DNA of 30,926 bases from a virus: positions 1 through 30,926 of the IMG/VR virus record IMGVR_UViG_3300031787_000574; one strand, 5' to 3'. The position numbers and the translations under genes are program-made. Below the pieces are notes generated by a model that worked only from the letters and a program-made list of their open reading frames with translations, made no database searches and was not told where the DNA came from. Positions 1 through 20,581 of the stretch are shown in pieces. Within the stretch, counting starts at the first letter, position 1; each line of letters opens with the position of its first letter.

Positions 1-2218
1 AAGTTGCTGAGAATGTTGGAACTTTAGAACCTGCAGCAGCACTACCACCACCTTTCATTCCAGACGATTGTACTATTGGTGGTAGAGTTACAACATTTTG
101 AGAACCATCTCTTGTCAATGGTTTTATCTGTGGAATATTCTTTGTCCTGTAACCAAGTTTAGCTGCATTTGAGTCACTGTCAGTCATTGCAACTAATTTA
201 TCAATGAGAGAAGTTCCAAGACGATTTACAGTATTAACAGGAAGAACATACTCTCCAGGTTGAGCGAAAATGGCTTGTCTATCTGCTGTTGCTCCACGAA
301 TATCCATTCCAGTATTCTCTTTAATCAATCCACCACCCATACGCTGCATAGGTCTAGGACCTTTATATCCAGGTGCATTATAATATGCATTAGGTCCAGT
401 AAGTTGACTATATGATGATGTTCCTTCCGGAAATAACATATCACTGATGACAGGAGCATTTAATAATCCACTGCCACGGGAAAGCGTTCTTCCAAATCCC
501 ATGCCAGTTCTCTGTGCTACTCCACTTGTTAACTGAGAACGAAGTCTATTTGCAAGAGGACTATTTGAATACCTACCAGAAAGTAATCTATCTGCCAAAA
601 CCTTTCCCTTATCAAATGTAGACGGATTTACAACAGATTGTGGTTCAATAATGTTTATACCTCTTGCACCTCCAGGAACTATTGTCTTAACTACACCACC
701 AGGAACTTGAGTTCCACCCAGAGACCCTGCAGAACCAGCATATCGTTGAGCTCCTTTTAACGTAGGTGCAGAGTATGCACCTCTACCAAGTATTTGTGGT
801 TTCCATCCTCCAAGTCTAAACTTATCACCCCCCATAATGGCTTCAAATCCCTGTTTTGCCATACCAGTAAATCCAGCCTGGACTCCTCTTGTACTGAGTC
901 CTCTAGGTCTATTGAATAGACTCATCAACCCACCAACGATTCCCCCAGTATTAAAGAATCTACCAAACTTAGGTTGGTTAGCACCTGAACCACCATAATG
1001 TCTGTTTAGACTTAAAAATGTATCCGCACCAACAGCATCTACAGTTTTCTTATTAATAACAACCTCTCCAGGCATTGCTGCAATCAATTGAGTATCAGGA
1101 CCAAATCCGGATATTCTTTGACCCGTGTTATTGTCTATACCGGAATATCCATTCATCACAGAACCACCACGGGCAGCACCCTGAAGGAGTCCGTAAGGTG
1201 TTGTTGGACCCATATTACCAACACTAGGAACCTTATCGGTCATAGTGTCAGTCCCCTGAGCACCTAAACCTTTTCCAGTCTGTGCCCGTGCTTTATTTTC
1301 TGCTTGAACTCCTGCTGCCTTTCTTTGCCCGGTAACTTCATTAGCAGCAGCTGCTAAACCAATTGCTGCGGCAGGAACAGCAACCCAAGGATTAAGTAAA
1401 ACTTTACTGAGACCTTTTATTGCCCCAGCAATCTTGGGTATTGCACCAACTAGTTTGCCAGTTAAACCACCAACGATTCCAAGTATTCCTCTTACAAATT
1501 TACCAAATGGTGTGAAAAATAAAACAAAAGCACCAAGTAAAGAAGGCCACCAATCCTTTACAAATCTCTTTAAAGTTTCTACTTTATTTTTATTTTTTGG
1601 GTCTTGAAACCATTTTACTAATTGCGTAAATGCATTACCAAGTAATGTGAAGAATAGGAATCTCCACACACGGTCAATAATTCCTTGAAATGGAGAAATA
1701 AATTTCTTTACCGCATCAGATACGGCAGACATTCCTTTCTTAACAGTCTCTAGTCCAGCCTCTCTTTTTGACCTTTTATTTGCCTCAGCGTCTCTCCTTT
1801 CTTGGTCGGCACTATCTTCTTTAAAATCTAAGAAAGAAACTAATACTTTCTTAATAGAATCTAGAGGTCCCTGAAGAGGTGCCAAATTTGCAGGTTGAAT
1901 TTGTGAAGATTGGACTCCGCCTGCAGGTGCAATTAAAGGAGTTGATAATGGTTGTACTGCTGGTTTTAAAAACTTAGTCGTCGCTATCTTATTTGCGTTT
2001 ATCTTCTGACTCTTTGGTTTAAATCTACCCTTCTTACCTCTTATTCTTTTTCTTTCATTTGCAAGTAAAGCAAGTTCTTCTGGTGGCAATCTTTTTGCAC
2101 CAGACACCATCGCTTCTCTAATGAGAGTATAATAGGTATCATAATCAATGTCATATGTATAGTTAAGACCCAGTAGCCTTAGAATTCTTTCATCGATTTT
2201 TTCGGATACTGAGTTCAT
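1..2218 (-). CDS. Tail tape-measure-like structural protein (partial, C terminus beyond window)
   Basis: Open from ATG at 2218 to the window edge (about 739 codons, no stop), so the C-terminal end is missing. Residues about 40-80 are Lys/Arg rich. Residues about 185-285 hold hydrophobic Gly/Ala/Ile-rich stretches with membrane-like segments. The rest is Gly-rich and contains two PGE(V/Y)V motifs near residues 379 and 652, of a type often seen in tape-measure proteins. It follows gp26 and the gp51-like gene, where tape-measure genes sit behind tail chaperones in many phages. I infer a tape-measure or hub role from position, size and composition; no catalytic motif is visible, and another large virion protein is possible. 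Confidence 0.5.
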   Translation of the reverse strand, partial: MNSVSEKIDERILRLLGLNYTYDIDYDTYYTLIREAMVSGAKRLPPEELALLANERKRIRGKKGRFKPKSQKINANKIATTKFLKPAVQPLSTPLIAPAGGVQSSQIQPANLAPLQGPLDSIKKVLVSFLDFKEDSADQERRDAEANKRSKREAGLETVKKGMSAVSDAVKKFISPFQGIIDRVWRFLFFTLLGNAFTQLVKWFQDPKNKNKVETLKRFVKDWWPSLLGAFVLFFTPFGKFVRGILGIVGGLTGKLVGAIPKIAGAIKGLSKVLLNPWVAVPAAAIGLAAAANEVTGQRKAAGVQAENKARAQTGKGLGAQGTDTMTDKVPSVGNMGPTTPYGLLQGAARGGSVMNGYSGIDNNTGQRISGFGPDTQLIAAMPGEVVINKKTVDAVGADTFLSLNRHYGGSGANQPKFGRFFNTGGIVGGLMSLFNRPRGLSTRGVQAGFTGMAKQGFEAIMGGDKFRLGGWKPQILGRGAYSAPTLKGAQRYAGSAGSLGGTQVPGGVVKTIVPGGARGINIIEPQSVVNPSTFDKGKVLADRLLSGRYSNSPLANRLRSQLTSGVAQRTGMGFGRTLSRGSGLLNAPVISDMLFPEGTSSYSQLTGPNAYYNAPGYKGPRPMQRMGGGLIKENTGMDIRGATADRQAIFAQPGEYVLPVNTVNRLGTSLIDKLVAMTDSDSNAAKLGYRTKNIPQIKPLTRDGSQNVVTLPPIVQSSGMKGGGSAAAGSKVPTFSAT

Positions 2219-2224
2219 TTATCG

Positions 2225-2395
2225 CTAGCGTTGTCTTTGTTTAAATTCTTCTTCTTCGAGATGATTCTTTAATAGTCCAACATAAACGTCCCTTTCCCAA
2301 GGAATCATATTTTCAATCTCCGTTAATGAATATTTATGGAACTGAATGAGAGAAAAATTTAATTTAAAATAATTCTCTAAGTCCATATGGGACAT
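2225..2395 (-). CDS. 51: gp51-like baseplate hub assembly / tail chaperone peptide
   Basis: A 56-aa ORF starting 2 nt after the gp26 stop and ending 6 nt before the large tail gene. It contains the short motif IPWERDVYVGLL followed by a Glu-rich tail, resembling the small proteins encoded next to gp26 in T4-like phages. A second ATG at 2386 has AGGA 9 nt upstream, so re-initiation could give a 53-aa form. The frame is also open upstream through the end of gp26 in the -1 frame, so a gp26-gp51 fusion is possible (see findings). The gp51 name rests on position and a weak motif. Confidence 0.55.
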   Translation of the reverse strand: MSHMDLENYFKLNFSLIQFHKYSLTEIENMIPWERDVYVGLLKNHLEEEEFKQRQR

Positions 2396-2397
2396 TC

Positions 2398-3117
2398 CTA
2401 TGCGAAAAAACTTGATAACCCTTCAAGAACAACTTCACTTTCAACTTCGGTATTTGGATTTGTAACTTTAATCTTATGAGAAAGTTTTGGCATCGTCTCA
2501 AAGAACTGTTCGATTTCTTTAAATTGAACCGAATTCATTTGGTCTAGAAATTCTAACAGTTCTTTCTTAGTAACATCAGCAGCAACCCATACATCATCCT
2601 CTGTATAAATTTTATCAATACAAGAAGATATCAATTCAAAAGACTGGTCCATAGTATTGTCTGAGGACAAATCAAAATTACTCTTAATAAACTGGTCTAG
2701 TGATGGATACTTCATTTCCATCATAATAGAGTCATCAAGTTTTATTTTATTATTATGTTCGGGAACTCTTAAAACTTGAATATCATCTACAGAAATTTTT
2801 ACAGGAACTACTGTCTCTTCATCATCAGGACAAATAACATTTACTTCAATCTCTTCCCCGACAGATTTACCTCGGATGTTAAGGAAAAGATATTCAATGT
2901 CAAAGGTTGGAAGAGACTCTACTTTGACGTTTTTTGTTTCAATACAATTCTTAATAACAGTTTTAATTGCTGTAGTAATTTGCTTGGTATCTTCAGACTC
3001 TAAAGCAAGAACTAAAAGTTTTTCCTCTCTTACAAGAAAAGGTCTATACTTAATTTTTTGTCTTGTGGATGGCAACTCAAGTTCATAAGTTGGCGTAGAA
3101 ATCTTAGGTAAAGGCAT
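2398..3117 (-). CDS. 26: Baseplate hub subunit gp26
   Basis: A 239-aa protein of the T4 gp26 family. The N terminus has the family pattern: MPLPKISTPTYELELPSTRQ, then YRPFLVREEK and LALESED near residues 24-43, then FDIEYLFLNIRGKSVG near 72-87. In T4, gp26 belongs to the baseplate hub assembly pathway. The start ATG lies 28 nt downstream of a late-promoter-like AATAAATA. The last codons read over TTTTTTC at 2404-2410, in the phase of a -1 frameshift site. Confidence 0.85.
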   Translation of the reverse strand: MPLPKISTPTYELELPSTRQKIKYRPFLVREEKLLVLALESEDTKQITTAIKTVIKNCIETKNVKVESLPTFDIEYLFLNIRGKSVGEEIEVNVICPDDEETVVPVKISVDDIQVLRVPEHNNKIKLDDSIMMEMKYPSLDQFIKSNFDLSSDNTMDQSFELISSCIDKIYTEDDVWVAADVTKKELLEFLDQMNSVQFKEIEQFFETMPKLSHKIKVTNPNTEVESEVVLEGLSSFFA

Positions 3118-3167: not shown

Positions 3168-4097
3168 TTAAAAAAGAGGATTATTTTGCTGTCTTACAAT
3201 AAAGTCTTCGAGGAGACCTCTTCGAAGTTCATTTGCCTGTTCTCCCGGCAATCCAGGTCCATAATATTCTGGTTTTTTTGGAACCCCTGGTGGCGTTGAT
3301 GGAGTTGGTTCAGACTCTGGTGCATATGCTCGTGATGCAAGAATATATCTATTAAAAGTGAAAGAGACGGTACATTTAAGCAACTGAGATGAATCATAAG
3401 AAACTGGCATTGAGGCAACGCTTACTGGATAAGCCTTAACGAAGGTATAATTTAAATAATTTCCATTGAAATCCCTTTCAAACTTATTAATAAAAATTTC
3501 AGTTCTATATCCATTATCTCCATCAGGATATCCAACTCTATAATTATAATTTCCATCTGCTGCAGTAGAAGTTTCTCCCATTGCATATCTCATCCACCCC
3601 TCAAAAAAATTAATCACATTATATCCACTATTCAATACTCCACCATCAACATAAAAAGTAAAATCTACAGTATTATCATATTGCCTACGATATCCTAGTC
3701 TTTCAGTGACTCCAGTATAATCATCATTAATTTCATTTGTAATGATAGATGACCCAGGAAGAGATGCTTCGGTACAAGATATTGAAATAAAATCATCATT
3801 ATAATTTGTCACCGCCCTAACAGATGTTGGTGGATTAAACCAACACTGAAAATGTGAAGTCAGTGAAGGTCTCAATAAAAATGATTTTATTTGAAGCGCA
3901 CTTTTGTAATTCTTTGGTGGTGGAGCACCACCAGGATTAGATGTGACACGACTACCTGTTCCCGGACTTTTTCCTGTACCAGAAGTTTGAATGCTGGGAG
4001 CAGGAATTACAGGAACTCCAGAAGCTGGTGTTGGATTATATGGTCTCGCATTTTGTTCATTCTCAAAATCATAGATAGGGGGTCTATTTATAGTCAT
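3168..4097 (-). CDS. Tail-tube-fold baseplate protein (gp54-like candidate)
   Basis: A 309-aa protein. The first 65 residues are Pro/Gly/Ser-rich linker. Residues about 70-260 look like the T4 tail tube/tube-initiator fold, with SLTSHFQCWFNPP, CTEASLPGSS, TERLGYRRQ, a central FTFYVD strand, and VKAYPVSVASMPVSYDSS leading into CTVSFTFNRYIL. That last pattern recalls gp19/gp54-family C-terminal strands. The tail is Pro-rich. It is divergent from gp4 and next to gp26, which fits a tail-tube initiator or related tube protein. I cannot separate gp54 from another tube paralogue by eye. Confidence 0.55.
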   Translation of the reverse strand: MTINRPPIYDFENEQNARPYNPTPASGVPVIPAPSIQTSGTGKSPGTGSRVTSNPGGAPPPKNYKSALQIKSFLLRPSLTSHFQCWFNPPTSVRAVTNYNDDFISISCTEASLPGSSIITNEINDDYTGVTERLGYRRQYDNTVDFTFYVDGGVLNSGYNVINFFEGWMRYAMGETSTAADGNYNYRVGYPDGDNGYRTEIFINKFERDFNGNYLNYTFVKAYPVSVASMPVSYDSSQLLKCTVSFTFNRYILASRAYAPESEPTPSTPPGVPKKPEYYGPGLPGEQANELRRGLLEDFIVRQQNNPLF

Positions 4098-15188: not shown

Positions 15189-15473
15189 TTATTTAGCGTT
15201 AACTGGAACTCCTTGTCCTTCAGGTAACCATACTTGCTGCTGAAGATCCATAGGAGGAAGTTCTTCTTTTGCTGCAGGTAGTCCTTGTTGACCAGGAAGT
15301 TGTTTGTCTGTCGTTGACGTTATGGTAATGACTTGATCTAAGATGAACTTTTGCTTGCGATAAGTTCTTTTATCTTTATCAAATCCAATTAACATTAGAG
15401 CATCTTTTTCTTCGCCACAGTGTGCGATTACTCTACCTGTGGTTTTATCTGTCACTACCCAATACTCATACAT
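15189..15473 (-). CDS. 94-aa protein with Pro/Gln-rich tail, unknown
   Basis: MYEYWVVTDKTTGRVIAHCG at the start looks like a small beta-rich domain; the C-terminal 40 residues are Pro/Gln/Leu-rich. Its ATG overlaps the end of the 39-aa frame upstream. No domain recognised. Confidence 0.6.
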   Translation of the reverse strand: MYEYWVVTDKTTGRVIAHCGEEKDALMLIGFDKDKRTYRKQKFILDQVITITSTTDKQLPGQQGLPAAKEELPPMDLQQQVWLPEGQGVPVNAK

Positions 15474-15585
15474 TCTTTTTCTTCTGACTTTTTGTATTAT
15501 AGGTTTCTTTTGCTGGTCTGTAAAGGTTTGGCCAAGTATCTCTAATGATCTCTGCTAGTTTATATGGAGTTGTTGAGGATATCAT
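15466..15585 (-). CDS. 39-aa peptide downstream of psbD (candidate)
   Basis: Encodes MISSTTPYKLAEIIRDTWPN and a basic end, overlapping the next start by 8 nt. There is no clear ribosome site. It lies after the psbD terminator, in the 220-nt gap to 15693, where nothing else is seen. Confidence 0.35.
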   Translation of the reverse strand: MISSTTPYKLAEIIRDTWPNLYRPAKETYNTKSQKKKNV

Positions 15586-15656
15586 AAGTCTTGCATAACA
15601 GATAATATAAACATTAAGATTCCAAAAAGTTGGAAAAGAATGAGAATGAGAAGCAT

Positions 15657-15682
15657 AAAAAAAGGAGTTCGGAGAACTCCTT
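15657..15682 (-). terminator. psbD rho-independent terminator
   Basis: A 9-bp perfect stem (15662-15670 with 15674-15682), 3-nt loop, then seven T on the minus strand, 10 nt past the psbD stop. Confidence 0.88.
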
Positions 15683-15692
15683 GTATTTATTT

Positions 15693-16754
15693 TTAGAGTG
15701 CGTTGCCTCTTGGCAAGACCTCTTCGGGAAACTGGAAATTTGCTCCAGGTTGATCTACTGGTGCCATCCAAGCACGAAGACCTTCGTTTAACAGAATGTT
15801 CTTTGTGTAGAACGTTTCAAACTCTGGGTCCTCTGCTGCTCTAATTTCCTGACTTACAAAGTCGTAAGCACGTAGATTAAGAGCAAGACCGATGATACCG
15901 ATGCTGGAAGTCCAAAGACCCATAACAGGGACGAAAAGCATAAAGAAATGCAACCAACGCTTATTACTGAAAGCAATACCAAAAATCTGAGACCAGAATC
16001 TGTTTGCAGTAACCATTGAATAGGTTTCTTCTTCCTGAGTAGGTTCAAAACCTTTAAATGTGTTTGACGCATCTCCATCTTCATACAGCGTATTTTCTAC
16101 AGTTGCTCCGTGAATGGCACAGAGCAATGCTCCTCCTAGTATACCAGCAACTCCCATCATATGGAAGGGGTTAAGGGTCCAGTTGTGGAAACCCTGCAGG
16201 AACAGCAGGAACCTGAAGATTGCTGCTACACCAAATGAAGGTGCGAAGAACCAACTGGATTGCCCCAGAGGGTACATCAGGAACACGCTCACGAAGACTG
16301 CGATGGGTCCAGAGAAGGCAATAGCATTATAAGGACGAATGCCTACAAGACGGGCAATCTCAAACTGCCTAAGCATGAATCCAATCAGAGCGAAAGATCC
16401 GTGGAGTGCCACAAAAGTCCATAGTCCCCCAAGTTGGAACCACCTGACGATATCCCCTTGAGCCTCAGGACCCCAAAGTAGAAGAAGAGAATGACCCATA
16501 GAATCTGCAGGCGTTGACACAGCTGCCGTAAGGAAATTAGCCCCCTCAAGGTAACTAGACGCCAACCCGTGGGTGTACCAGCTTGTAACAAACGTTGTGC
16601 CAGTAAGCCAGCCACCAAGGGCAAGATAAGCAGTGGGAAAAAGTAATAGTCCAGACCAACCCACAAATACAAAGCGATCTCGTTTAAGCCAGTCATCCAG
16701 GACATCAAACCATCCTCGTTGTTGAATTGGTTGTGAAAGTGTAGAAGAAGTCAT
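15693..16754 (-). CDS. psbD: Photosystem II D2 protein
   Basis: Full-length 353-aa D2, from [20 protein letters not shown] to [10 protein letters not shown], with the five membrane helices and [20 protein letters not shown] around the quinone/iron His. It would replace photodamaged host D2 in thylakoid reaction centres during infection. GC content looks higher than in the flanking phage genes, as in host-derived psbD. AGGAGGT lies 2-3 nt before the ATG. It has its own promoter and terminator. Confidence 0.97.
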
Positions 16755-16774
16755 AACCTCCTATGTATTTCTCA

Positions 16775-16808
16775 TATTTATCTTAACATTACTTAATAAA
16801 GAGGTCAA
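16775..16808 (-). promoter_or_regulatory. psbD overlapping sigma70 and late promoter
   Basis: TTGACC (16803-16808), 17-nt spacer, TAAGAT (16780-16785), with the late-type GATAAATA at 16775-16782 sharing the last three bases of the -10. Same layout as psbA. Confidence 0.65.
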
Positions 16809-16836
16809 TGAGTGTTTATGCTTAAAATAAATTTAT

Positions 16837-17067
16837 TCACAAGTTTTGATATTTTTTAAAAGAATCTAACCAAATTTTTTCTGCTTTAGACTTACCATTA
16901 GAATATGTTTTAACAAATTTTCTACCTAAGAAAAACATTTTTGGACTTCTTCCTGCAACAGGTCCAATATCATCAGCATTTGAACTAAATCCAGGTTTAT
17001 CAGCAGTGCTTTGTGTTGTCATTCCTTCAGACAAACATTCCAAAATAAACTGTTTGAAAGTTTTCAT
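16837..17067 (-). CDS. Small protein with capsid-targeting-like N terminus
   Basis: A 76-aa protein starting MKTFKQFILECLSEGM. This is close to the T4 capsid-targeting sequence of internal proteins (MKTYQEFIAE), which is cut after the Glu by the gp21 protease. The remainder is polar and basic at the end (KSKAEKIWLDSFKKYQNL). I infer a packaged internal head protein injected with the DNA. It sits between the 40-aa membrane peptide and psbD. An ACTAAATA at 17085-17092 could be a weak late promoter. Confidence 0.6.
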   Translation of the reverse strand: MKTFKQFILECLSEGMTTQSTADKPGFSSNADDIGPVAGRSPKMFFLGRKFVKTYSNGKSKAEKIWLDSFKKYQNL

Positions 17068-17094
17068 TTATGATAGTTTTTAAATATTTAGTTT

Positions 17095-17217
17095 TTATCC
17101 CCAATACATCTGACCGAGAGTGAATAAGACAAATACAAGAACAGTAAAGACCATCATACCCACACCAGCCCAGATAATCCAGGGTTCCATAGGATGATGT
17201 TGATTATTATGAGACAT
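17095..17217 (-). CDS. 40-aa single-pass membrane peptide after the endonuclease
   Basis: MSHNNQHHPMEPWIIWAGVG followed by a Met/Val/Phe-rich membrane helix. The His-rich head has no recognised function. The ATG overlaps the endonuclease 3' end by 11 nt. It lies between psbA and psbD. Confidence 0.5.
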   Translation of the reverse strand: MSHNNQHHPMEPWIIWAGVGMMVFTVLVFVLFTLGQMYWG

Positions 17218-17632
17218 TGAGATATGCAATCATTTTATGTAAGGTATCTATGTTATCACCTACAAGTCCTAGTGCGGTGTTGCAGTGATGGCATAAAAGT
17301 TTTCTTACTTTACCAGTTGTATGGCAATGGTCTACACATAACTTCTTCCACTTACCATTTCCTTCATTTCTACAAATAGCACATCTCCCATTCTGGTCTT
17401 CAAACATTTTTGTATGTTCTTCAAGAGTTATGCCATAGTTTCTTTTTAGATCGTTATTTCTTGTTTTTTGTGGGTTTGCTTGGTGCCTTGCTTTCACCCT
17501 TGCCTTATCACACTCTTTGCAGGCAGAGTGCCTCCTTCCAGTTTTTTTATCACGCATATAAAACTCGGTAATGTGCTTCTCAACATCACAGGTCATACAA
17601 GTTCTATACAGGTCGGAGTATAGTTTAGTCAT
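17207..17632 (-). CDS. HNH/endonuclease VII-type homing endonuclease near psbA
   Basis: A 141-aa protein. Two zinc Cys pairs come first (C12/C15 and C38/C41), then CAIC (C84/C87), the catalytic DHCHTTGKVRKLLC core (101-114) and CHHCNTALG, as in the recombination endonuclease VII family. It lies just after psbA exon 2, outside the intron, as F-CphI does in S-PM2, where that enzyme is described as cutting intronless psbA. It probably spreads the intron. A perfect late promoter precedes it; no strong ribosome site is visible. Confidence 0.82.
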   Translation of the reverse strand: MTKLYSDLYRTCMTCDVEKHITEFYMRDKKTGRRHSACKECDKARVKARHQANPQKTRNNDLKRNYGITLEEHTKMFEDQNGRCAICRNEGNGKWKKLCVDHCHTTGKVRKLLCHHCNTALGLVGDNIDTLHKMIAYLNVS

Positions 17633-17656
17633 TTCGTGCTTTCTTTCGTGCTTAAA

Positions 17657-17664
17657 TATTTATA
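17657..17664 (-). promoter_or_regulatory. Late promoter TATAAATA for the homing endonuclease
   Basis: Perfect TATAAATA on the minus strand, 25 nt upstream of the endonuclease ATG. Its first bases are the end of the psbA terminator U-tract. Confidence 0.7.
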
Positions 17665-17690
17665 AAAAAAGGAACTCCGAAGAGTTCCTT
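17663..17690 (-). terminator. psbA rho-independent terminator
   Basis: A 9-bp stem (17669-17677 with 17682-17690) with a UUCG loop, then a run of T on the minus strand. It begins 9 nt past the psbA stop. Confidence 0.88.
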
Positions 17691-17699
17691 AACATTATA

Positions 17700-18994
17700 T
17701 CAACCGATTGCGGGAGCAGTCAAGGCAACTGGTGTTGCTTCTGCTGCTGCAAGGTCAAGAGGGAAGTTGTGTGCATTCTTAAACTTCCCATAACTATCTG
17801 GTATTACTACCAGGATTGGACTATATCATCACCATTTCTGGTGTCGGACGCTTATTCCTGTTATTAAGGGAACTATATCCCTCAGGTAGTCTCTGAACCT
17901 TTCCAGAGTGTACTCTGGACTTGGCTGCTGATTGCCCACTTGGGGTTTCCAGCAATTCATCCGATTTAAAGAGCGCAAAGCACAACTTGACGCTCGTGCA
18001 TTACCTCCATTCCGAGACCAGCACGGTTAAGTACATCAGCCCAGGTGTTAACTACACGGTTCTGACTATCAACGATTGACTGATTGAAATTAAAGCCATT
18101 CAAATTGAAAGCCATCGTAGAAACACCAAGGGCAGTAAACCAGATACCGACAACAGGCCAGGCAGCAAGGAAGAAGTGCAGAGAACGTGAGTTATTGAAG
18201 GAAGCATATTGGAAAATAAGGCGTCCAAAATAACCATGAGCAGCAACGATGTTATAAGTCTCTTCTTCTTGACCGAACTTGTAACCATAGTTCTGCGACT
18301 CTTGCTCGGTAGTTTCACGAACCAGCGAGGAAGTAACCAGCGAACCGTGCATTGCACTGAACAAAGAACCACCGAAGACACCAGCAACTCCAAGCATATG
18401 GAAGGGGTGCATCAGAATGTTATGTTCTGCCTGGAACACAAGCATGTAGTTAAACGTACCAGAGATACCAAGAGGCATTGCATCAGAGAAAGAACCTTGA
18501 CCGAAAGGATAGACCAGGAACACTGCAGAAGCAGCAGCAACAGGTGCAGAGTAAGCAACACAGATCCAAGGACGCATACCTAGACGGTAAGAAAGTTCCC
18601 ATTCACGACCCATGTAGGCATAGATGCCGATGAGGAAGTGGAAAACAACGAGTTGGAAAGGACCACCGTTGTAAAGCCACTCATCAAGTGAAGCAGCTTC
18701 CCAGATGGGGTAGAAGTGCAGTCCAATTGCGTTGGACGAAGGGATAACAGCACCAGAGATGATGTTGTTTCCGTACATTAGAGAACCAGCTACTGGTTCG
18801 CGGATACCGTCGATATCGACAGGTGGTGCGCCGATGAAGGCGATAATGAAACAAGTTGTAGCAGCAAGCAGGCAAGGAATCATCAGAACGCCGAACCAAC
18901 CCACATAGAGGCGGTTGTCGGTTGAAGTTACCCAGTTGCAGAACTGTTCCCAAATATTCGATTGTGATTGTTGACGTGAAAGTGTAGCAGTCAT
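17700..18994 (-). CDS. psbA: Photosystem II D1 protein, split by a group I intron
   Basis: Exon 1 is 18994-17990 (335 codons, ending HER) and exon 2 is 17777-17700 (25 codons, starting [10 protein letters not shown], then stop). Joined, they give 360 aa, the usual D1 length. Unspliced reading stops at 17966 after seven intron codons. Mn-cluster ligands equivalent to D170, E189, H332 and E333 are in exon 1; H337, D342 and A344 are in exon 2. The residue equivalent to 130 is Glu ([13 protein letters not shown]), as in high-light D1:2 forms. No Shine-Dalgarno site precedes the ATG. The leader is about 160 nt. Confidence 0.96.
17778..17989 (-). ncRNA. Group I intron in psbA (212 nt)
   Basis: Exon 1 ends in U and the intron ends in G. 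P1 is visible: exon GAGCGT (17990-17995) pairs with the internal guide GCGCTC (17971-17976), closing with the U-G wobble at the splice site. P7 is GACTA (17887-17891) with TAGTC (17819-17823), inside the typical TTCAGAGACTA and ATATAGTCC boxes. It is too small for an ORF. 212 nt is the size I recall for the S-PM2 psbA intron. Self-splicing is inferred from the core. Confidence 0.93.
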
Positions 18995-19236: not shown

Positions 19237-19698
19237 ATGAAAAGACTTCTATTAGCCTTTTCGTTATTCTTCGCAATCCCAGTTAATGCTGCTGAAATCA
19301 CATCAAGAATCACTGACTCCGTACAATTGAAAGTTGATGGTGCTGCAGTTCAATCAACCCGAATCGGTGCTTCATATTCAGCGTCAGGAACCAATATCCA
19401 ATCCACATCTTTTGGTGGTGTAGGTGGTGCTGGAACCTATGATATCAATACTCCAGGTCAGGCATTTAGTTTCTCAGAAACTATCAATGCTGCTGATACT
19501 CCAGTTACAACTCAGACGGTTACAAATGGTGTGATTGGAACACCAAATCTCTACGGAGATAGCGTAACTCAAGTTGGTGGTGAAAAAGGATCTCTTGCAG
19601 GTACTCTTTCCCCAACTGGCGTTCCTACTGTTACTGCTGGTGGAGCAGGAACAAGTGCTACCGCTCAAAGATCAATTGAGTTAAGCGTATTCAAATGA
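19237..19698 (+). CDS. Exported protein, paralogue of the next gene
   Basis: A 153-aa protein from ATG 19237, chosen because it starts a clean signal peptide (MKRLLLAFSLFFAIPVNA, cut before AEIT). The mature part is Ser/Thr/Gly-rich and probably beta. It shares with the next protein the pattern SY-x-x-x-GTNI, then GQAFSFSETI versus GAPFQFSETY, and an S-I-x-x-SVF end. A CTAAATA at about 19201 could be a weak late promoter. The function is unknown; a surface or virion role is possible. Confidence 0.65.
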   Translation: MKRLLLAFSLFFAIPVNAAEITSRITDSVQLKVDGAAVQSTRIGASYSASGTNIQSTSFGGVGGAGTYDINTPGQAFSFSETINAADTPVTTQTVTNGVIGTPNLYGDSVTQVGGEKGSLAGTLSPTGVPTVTAGGAGTSATAQRSIELSVFK

Positions 19699-20060
19699 GA
19701 CATTTAACTCCCGTTTTGCTTTTAGCAACGGGAGTCATTTGTACTCCCGTTCATGCTGAGAGTGTTGTGCCTAATTTTACTAGAGGTACAATCAACGCAA
19801 CAACAGAATCAGCAACCAAAATTATAGAAACCATTCGTCAAGTTGAATATACTACTGGCGAATCATATACTGTAACTGGAACGAACATTAACATTCCTGG
19901 CTCCCCACAAAAGGGTGCTGCGTATTCGATTATGACTCAAGGTGCTCCATTCCAGTTCAGCGAAACCTATCTTGGCCCTGGAGTGGCAAAAGAAACATGG
20001 ATAGACCGCACTACAGAAACTCAATCAACCACTACATCAATCTCTGTCTTTACGCAGTAA
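19695..20060 (+). CDS. Exported protein, second paralogue
   Basis: A 121-aa protein with a signal peptide (MRHLTPVLLLATGVICTPVH, cut near HA-ES). The ATG overlaps the previous stop (ATGA). It shares GTNI, FQFSET and SISVF patterns with its upstream neighbour, suggesting a tandem duplication. Unknown function. Confidence 0.65.
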   Translation: MRHLTPVLLLATGVICTPVHAESVVPNFTRGTINATTESATKIIETIRQVEYTTGESYTVTGTNINIPGSPQKGAAYSIMTQGAPFQFSETYLGPGVAKETWIDRTTETQSTTTSISVFTQ

Positions 20061-20581
20061 TCTCAACAGGAACTGCATTCGCTCAAAGCACTCCTGCACC
20101 TAGCAATACAAACATTGCTGGACCAAGTGCAAGTGCTACAGGAAATGTAACCAACCAAGCGGTTCAAGTTCTTCAAGGACCTTATGCAGTTAATACTTAT
20201 GGTGGTGGAGTAAGTTGTCAAGGAGCAACTTTTTCTATATCTCCATTTGCTATGAGTAGTAATAATGCTAGCGATGACCCAGAATCTTTTGCCTCACGCA
20301 ATGGAAACTGGGGTATTTCTGCGGGTCTTAACATTCCATTAGATGGAAATTTGATGGACTTATGTAAAAAAAGAGCCGCAACCGAAATTGCTAGGCAGCA
20401 AGCAGAGACTGATAAAGCAAGATTAGATTTTGAACTTGTAAGATTACTAAAATGTGGCGAAGCATATAAGAATGGAGTTATGTTCCATCCCAATAGTCCT
20501 TACTACAAAGTTTGTGCTGATGTTGTTGTGAAATACCCAAGAGTTGAGGATGCAGTCAATGGAACCAATACAACTAATTGA
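19997..20581 (+). CDS. Exported protein with C-terminal helix and cysteines
   Basis: A 194-aa protein whose start lies 64 nt inside the previous gene. The hydrophobic stretch LCLYAVISTGTAFA before QSTPAPS looks like a signal peptide with a long polar N-region. The mature part has a Gly/Ser/Asn-rich half (YGGGVSCQGATFSISPFAMS), NWGISAGLNIPL near residue 105, an Arg/Glu/Ala-rich helix and CGEAYKNGVMFHPNSPYYKV with paired Cys. No domain recognised. The start could be mis-set. Confidence 0.6.
   Translation: MDRPHYRNSINHYINLCLYAVISTGTAFAQSTPAPSNTNIAGPSASATGNVTNQAVQVLQGPYAVNTYGGGVSCQGATFSISPFAMSSNNASDDPESFASRNGNWGISAGLNIPLDGNLMDLCKKRAATEIARQQAETDKARLDFELVRLLKCGEAYKNGVMFHPNSPYYKVCADVVVKYPRVEDAVNGTNTTN

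Follow-up and report, generated by a model that had tools for sequence, protein, structure and literature searches.

The locus described here lies on the minus strand of a 30,926-nucleotide viral DNA from an IMG/VR virus record (the window, meaning the whole stretch analysed), whose closest annotated relatives are cyanomyoviruses. It comprises the gp26 gene, a short reading frame conventionally labelled gp51 and several signals around the junction of the two, flanked by a tail-tube-like gene and a tape-measure-like gene (Table 1). The gp26 product matches the PF12322 profile with 253.9 bits (curated cut-off 24.5), and its AlphaFold2 model has a pLDDT of 87.7. The part of the phrog_150 profile matched by the 56-aa ORF corresponds to the C-terminal end of long gp26-family members.

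Table 1. Coordinates of the gp26/gp51 locus, its proposed signals and its neighbours in the window
Feature	Position	Strand	Evidence
Predicted short chaperone form (gp26, 239 aa; TAC-N, lambda G-like)	2398..3117	(-)	PF12322 T4_baseplate 1.7e-75; phrog_150 1.6e-79
Slippery heptamer T TTT TTC, in gp26 phase, one codon ahead of the stop	2404..2410	(-)	direct reading
Shine-Dalgarno (SD)-like GAAGGG, 8 nt 5' of the heptamer; proposed frameshift stimulator	2419..2424	(-)	G conservation across clusters, codon over-use, anti-SD pairing
Small hairpin GUCC-CAUAU-GGAC, 10 nt 3' of the heptamer; proposed stimulator	2381..2393	(-)	structure z-scores
gp26 stop TAG	2398..2400	(-)	direct reading
-1 frame extension, 59 codons + stop; C-terminal domain of the predicted 297-aa form (TAC-NC, lambda GT-like)	2225..2404	(-)	
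56-aa ORF, conventional label gp51 'baseplate hub assembly catalyst'	2225..2395	(-)	phrog_634 8.7e-26; phrog_150 positions 240-280
Tape-measure-like gene downstream, 739+ aa up to the window edge	2..2218	(-)	phrog_35029 (unknown) 5.8e-51; weak phrog_37649 tape measure 3.6e-4
Upstream neighbour, tail-tube-like protein	3168..4097	(-)	PF23849 3.1e-12; phrog_45 1.6e-26

At its 3' end gp26 reads GGG TTA TCA AGT TTT TTC GCA TAG, and direct reading of the minus strand confirms the observation of an earlier note on this DNA that T-TTT-TTC stands there in the gp26 phase. After a -1 slip the frame continues as CGC ATA GGA ATG TCC ... to a stop ending at 2225, and the junction translates as RIGMSHMDLENYF...; recomputation gave the same 297-aa fusion, with no intervening stop, that the note had predicted. 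The peptide that it proposed for detecting the fusion by mass spectrometry, SSFF-RIGMSH, does not survive digestion with trypsin, which splits FFR-IGMSH after the R, so that the diagnostic tryptic peptide is VTNPNTEVESEVVLEGLSSFFR for the fusion and ...SSFFA for the short form.

No other in-phase T_TTT_TTN or A_AAA_AAN heptamer in the 30.9-kb window has a -1 frame that passes the zero-frame stop. Two further X_XXY_YYZ matches in the window also have a -1 frame running past the stop. At AAAGGGT (19916; region 19695-20581, plus strand), the -1 frame of a 121-aa ORF runs into an overlapping 194-aa ORF, which is probably an ordinary ORF overlap. At AAATTTC (15735; region 15466-15771, minus strand), near the end of a psbD-like ORF, the -1 frame stays open over 89 codons and enters an overlapping 101-aa ORF. 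By eye, the minus-strand stretch 15693-18994 carries psbD-like and psbA-like ORFs with a 141-aa HNH endonuclease-like ORF in between.

Conservation of the junction was followed in 401 loci with both parts, collected from five collection scans and public phage records and grouped into 201 clusters; the clusters are related by descent rather than independent, and their counts indicate breadth, not p-values. The gp51 domain lies in the -1 frame relative to gp26 in every one of the 401 loci, and an in-phase T_TTT_TTN within the open -1 frame is present in 400 of them, with no case among the 401 of a heptamer upstream of a -1 stop. The joint conservation of heptamer and open frame, which the earlier note had put forward as the test of its reading, is thus found. 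The last base of the heptamer is mostly C (166/201 clusters), sometimes A or T, and G once; the six Ts are invariant in the 201 clusters, and adjacent silent sites vary. From the encoded peptides and gp26 codon usage the heptamer would be expected in about 80 of 201 clusters, compared with the 201 observed. In the remainder of these gp26 genes, 16 of 44,901 codon positions carry the motif, and other Phe-Phe pairs there are written T_TTT_TTT or T_TTT_TTC in 6 of 221 instances. A single sequence alone would be insufficient, but retention in 400 of 401 loci together with rarity elsewhere in gp26 excludes chance. The distance from heptamer to stop is 0, 1, 2, 3 or 8 codons, with the heptamer retained throughout, which shows that the slip site, and not the stop, is what is held.

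Beyond the cyanophages, the T_TTT_TTN site is also found in Vibrio KVP40-like phages, Delftia phage phiW-14, an Aeromonas phage and Pelagibacter phage Mosig, and the variant T_TTT_TTT in Sinorhizobium phage phiM7 and Methylophilales phage Melnitz-2. The canonical heptamer is missing in Pseudomonas phage Cygsa01, the sole exception among the 401 loci, and in Serratia phage 3M (Ackermannviridae), examined besides them. The gp26 relatives of these two phages end in ATT TTC ACC TAA (Cygsa01, L083:2450-2670) and GTT TTC ATC TGA (3M, L422:2400-2640), with a gp51-like domain open in the -1 frame in both and no early ATG in 3M; possibly these two shift at a non-canonical TTTC instead.

An invariant six-T homopolymer would also be compatible with a fusion that arises by transcriptional rather than ribosomal slippage at the T6 run. 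Six Ts are, however, short for efficient polymerase slippage, and a polymerase would require neither the fixed codon phase, nor the prevalent C at base seven, nor an SD-like element at ribosomal spacing, all of which are seen here; we consider this origin extremely improbable.

The SD-like element is a GARGG sequence ending about 8-9 nt 5' of the heptamer across the 201 clusters, with G at -11 in all of them and G at -10 in 198. Conservation of these Gs persists where the residue preceding the Gly is Arg, Lys, Thr, Gln or Ser. At the element GAG accounts for 61% of Glu codons (29% elsewhere) and GGG for 27% of Gly codons (6% elsewhere), and pairing with the anti-SD sequence, at -6.68, exceeds in strength the -5.29 to -5.60 obtained when the same peptides are redrawn with synonymous codons. 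These properties suggest that the element may stimulate frameshifting. A role as the SD for gp51 initiation was considered and rejected for the window, where ATG 2395 is more than 20 nt away and no -1 start codon lies at 5-9 nt.

Local RNA structure peaks just 3' of the slip site (mean z -1.87, s.e. 0.20, at +6, in 60 clusters), against about 0 at -60 and -0.15 at +60, which points to downstream structure as a second candidate stimulator. The hairpin in the window itself is weak (-4.2 kcal/mol), and clear hairpins are seen in the P-HM1-like lineage (GCCCUC/GAGGGC) and the P-SSM2-like lineage (about 11 bp). The hairpins are lineage-specific; their pair counts equal or barely exceed the expectation from column composition, one pair shows a G-C to A-U double change, and a search for a consensus hairpin with alifold in 63 close relatives yielded nothing.

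The earlier note named re-initiation at ATG 2395 or 2386 as a competing explanation. In this reading, widened to include stop-start coupling after gp26 termination, gp51 would solely be a separate 56-aa protein. In the window ATG 2395 sits 2 nt past the gp26 stop, and an AGGA precedes ATG 2386 by about 9 nt, with possible free products of 56 and 53 aa, respectively, and gp51 is mostly drawn as its own gene in public annotations. The relatives argue otherwise: the first 14 codons of the -1 extension lack ATG in 83 of 201 clusters and lack ATG, GTG and TTG alike in 63, where a separate start of full-length gp51 is hardly possible, and an SD-like motif at initiation distance before an in-frame ATG occurs in just 37 of 201. 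Moreover, coupling requires neither the six invariant Ts nor the fixed -1 frame, the SD-like element lies at a frameshift-type distance, and T4 carries the gp51 domain fused in frame. Re-initiation as the sole route is therefore disfavoured and, in our estimate, very improbable, and the 56-aa ORF is probably not a separate gene. A combined scheme, in which the fusion is made by frameshifting and some phages additionally produce the free C-terminal domain by internal initiation, would add to the frameshift reading; an ATG lies within ten codons past the slip in 117 of 201 clusters, but it is not conserved and has poor SD support, and Met codons there also encode residues of the fusion and hence are no evidence of starts. 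We regard such a second product as unlikely.

We therefore consider it highly probable, from the sequence evidence, that gp26 and gp51 constitute one gene for short and long tail assembly chaperones, expressed through a programmed -1 frameshift in the manner of lambda G/GT. In the proposed mechanism, most ribosomes would end at the gp26 TAG and release the short form, while some would pause at T_TTT_TTC, aided by GAAGGG on the 5' side and by RNA structure just 3' of the heptamer. The P-site and A-site Phe tRNAs would then move back one base, and the shifted ribosomes would read the 59 further codons to give the long form, whose C-terminal domain is 'gp51'. If the pair works as lambda G/GT does, abundant short copies may coat the tape measure protein and scarce long copies may recruit tail tube subunits.

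The lambda comparison, also drawn in the earlier note, holds in architecture and may extend to position, the next gene downstream being tape-measure-like by weak matches. Such weak matches are found for the downstream gene in four phages, to a different tape-measure family in each; its counterparts in phi-ST2, phiM7 and P-HM1 match families other than that matched in the window. A fold search with gp26 against the PDB gave no significant match (all E above 0.1); non-significant matches, with E of about 1 to 5, include 2OB9 (HK97 tail assembly chaperone), 3KLU and 3FGX, the latter two being small proteins that we take to be chaperone relatives. The model of a T4-like gp51 found no match in the PDB, and PDB sequence searches with T4 gp51 and the gp26 profile found no convincing solved relative. 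As the fold matches are non-significant, the proposed chaperone role rests mostly on the architecture and the published T4 assignment.

The homology of the two domains to T4 gp26 and gp51 is observed directly. T4 gp51 (249 aa) matches PF12322 over residues 1-201, phrog_150 over 3-248 and phrog_634, the family shared with the 56-aa ORF of the window, over 147-246, which shows it to consist of a gp26-like protein joined in frame to the short gp51 domain. T4 gp26 (208 aa) matches PF12322 along its whole length and is the short form. The predicted folds have a similar order of elements, with three extra C-terminal helices in T4-type gp51. In a tree of 31 PF12322 domains, T4-type gp26 proteins form one clade and the N-termini of T4-type gp51 another, and neither groups with the frameshift-type proteins. 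One duplication event on the T4 branch would account for this pattern; as the tree has no fixed root, the direction of change is one that we infer. We are reasonably confident that a -1 frameshift at T_TTT_TTN with an internal SD is the older route to the chaperone pair across the T4-like supergroup (cyanophages, pelagiphages, KVP40-like phages, phiM7 and phiW-14), that the T4 branch switched to duplication and in-frame fusion, and that what hundreds of cyanophage records show as a short 'gp51' gene is the mis-annotated tail of a fusion.

In these hundreds of cyanophage genomes gp51 is annotated separately, truncated to a late ATG or omitted. Several records leave it unannotated or start it late; at L425:2504-2670, at L422:2489-2640 and in several ACG-2014 cyanophage records the domain is present with no gene annotated, apparently because there is no early start codon. 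The label 'baseplate hub assembly catalyst' is probably misapplied, in that the domain would be the C-terminal part of a tail chaperone. As so large a T4-like branch retains the frameshift signal, the switch between frameshifting and gene duplication becomes traceable and testable in T4-like phages.

Among known -1 frameshift systems, the E. coli dnaX cassette places a slippery heptamer, A_AAA_AAG, between an internal Shine-Dalgarno some 10 nt 5' of it and a hairpin on its 3' side. The window shares this layout of heptamer, SD-like element and hairpin, whereas the shift yields a shorter product in dnaX and would yield a longer one here. In lambda G/GT the slip site is G-rich, in contrast to T_TTT_TTC with its upstream SD-like element in the window, and no sequence relation between the lambda and window genes is expected. 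The lambda chaperones and the conserved tail frameshift were described by Levin 1993 and by Xu, Hendrix and Duda 2004, as summarised in the Atkins review (PMC5009743), according to which the frameshift is widely conserved in long-tailed phages, T4 excepted; yet the signal persists across a very large group of T4-like phages that are abundant in oceans and lakes. The chaperone frameshift of Vandenendeviridae and Andersonviridae (phage Adele, PMC12846349) likewise has a poly-T slip and a -1 frame open without stops in every allele, but its slip motif is GTTTTT and the virus families are different. The T4 proteins are of the same family (PF12322) and form the same short and long pair as predicted for the window, but T4 encodes each form in a gene of its own, the two being transcribed divergently and the long one fused in frame, where the window has one gene and a predicted frameshift.

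The earlier note knew of no description of a tail-chaperone pair with programmed frameshifting in T4-like phages, and here the literature corrects it. As represented in papers citing it, Vladimirov, Gautam and Davidson 2022 (Virology 566:9-15) identified T4 gp26 and gp51 as tail assembly chaperones; PRFect (PMC10885494) cites it for T4-like phages in which a short gene is accompanied by a long fused one in place of frameshifting, and a later paper credits it with poly-T slip sites in T4-like chaperone genes. A search of titles and abstracts on gp26/gp51 frameshifting and cyanophage ribosomal frameshifting returned no report of this particular site. The kind to which the locus belongs is thus known, and some of the general finding has likely appeared in print already; the present analysis adds its breadth, the anatomy of the signal and the gp51 frames that lack a start.
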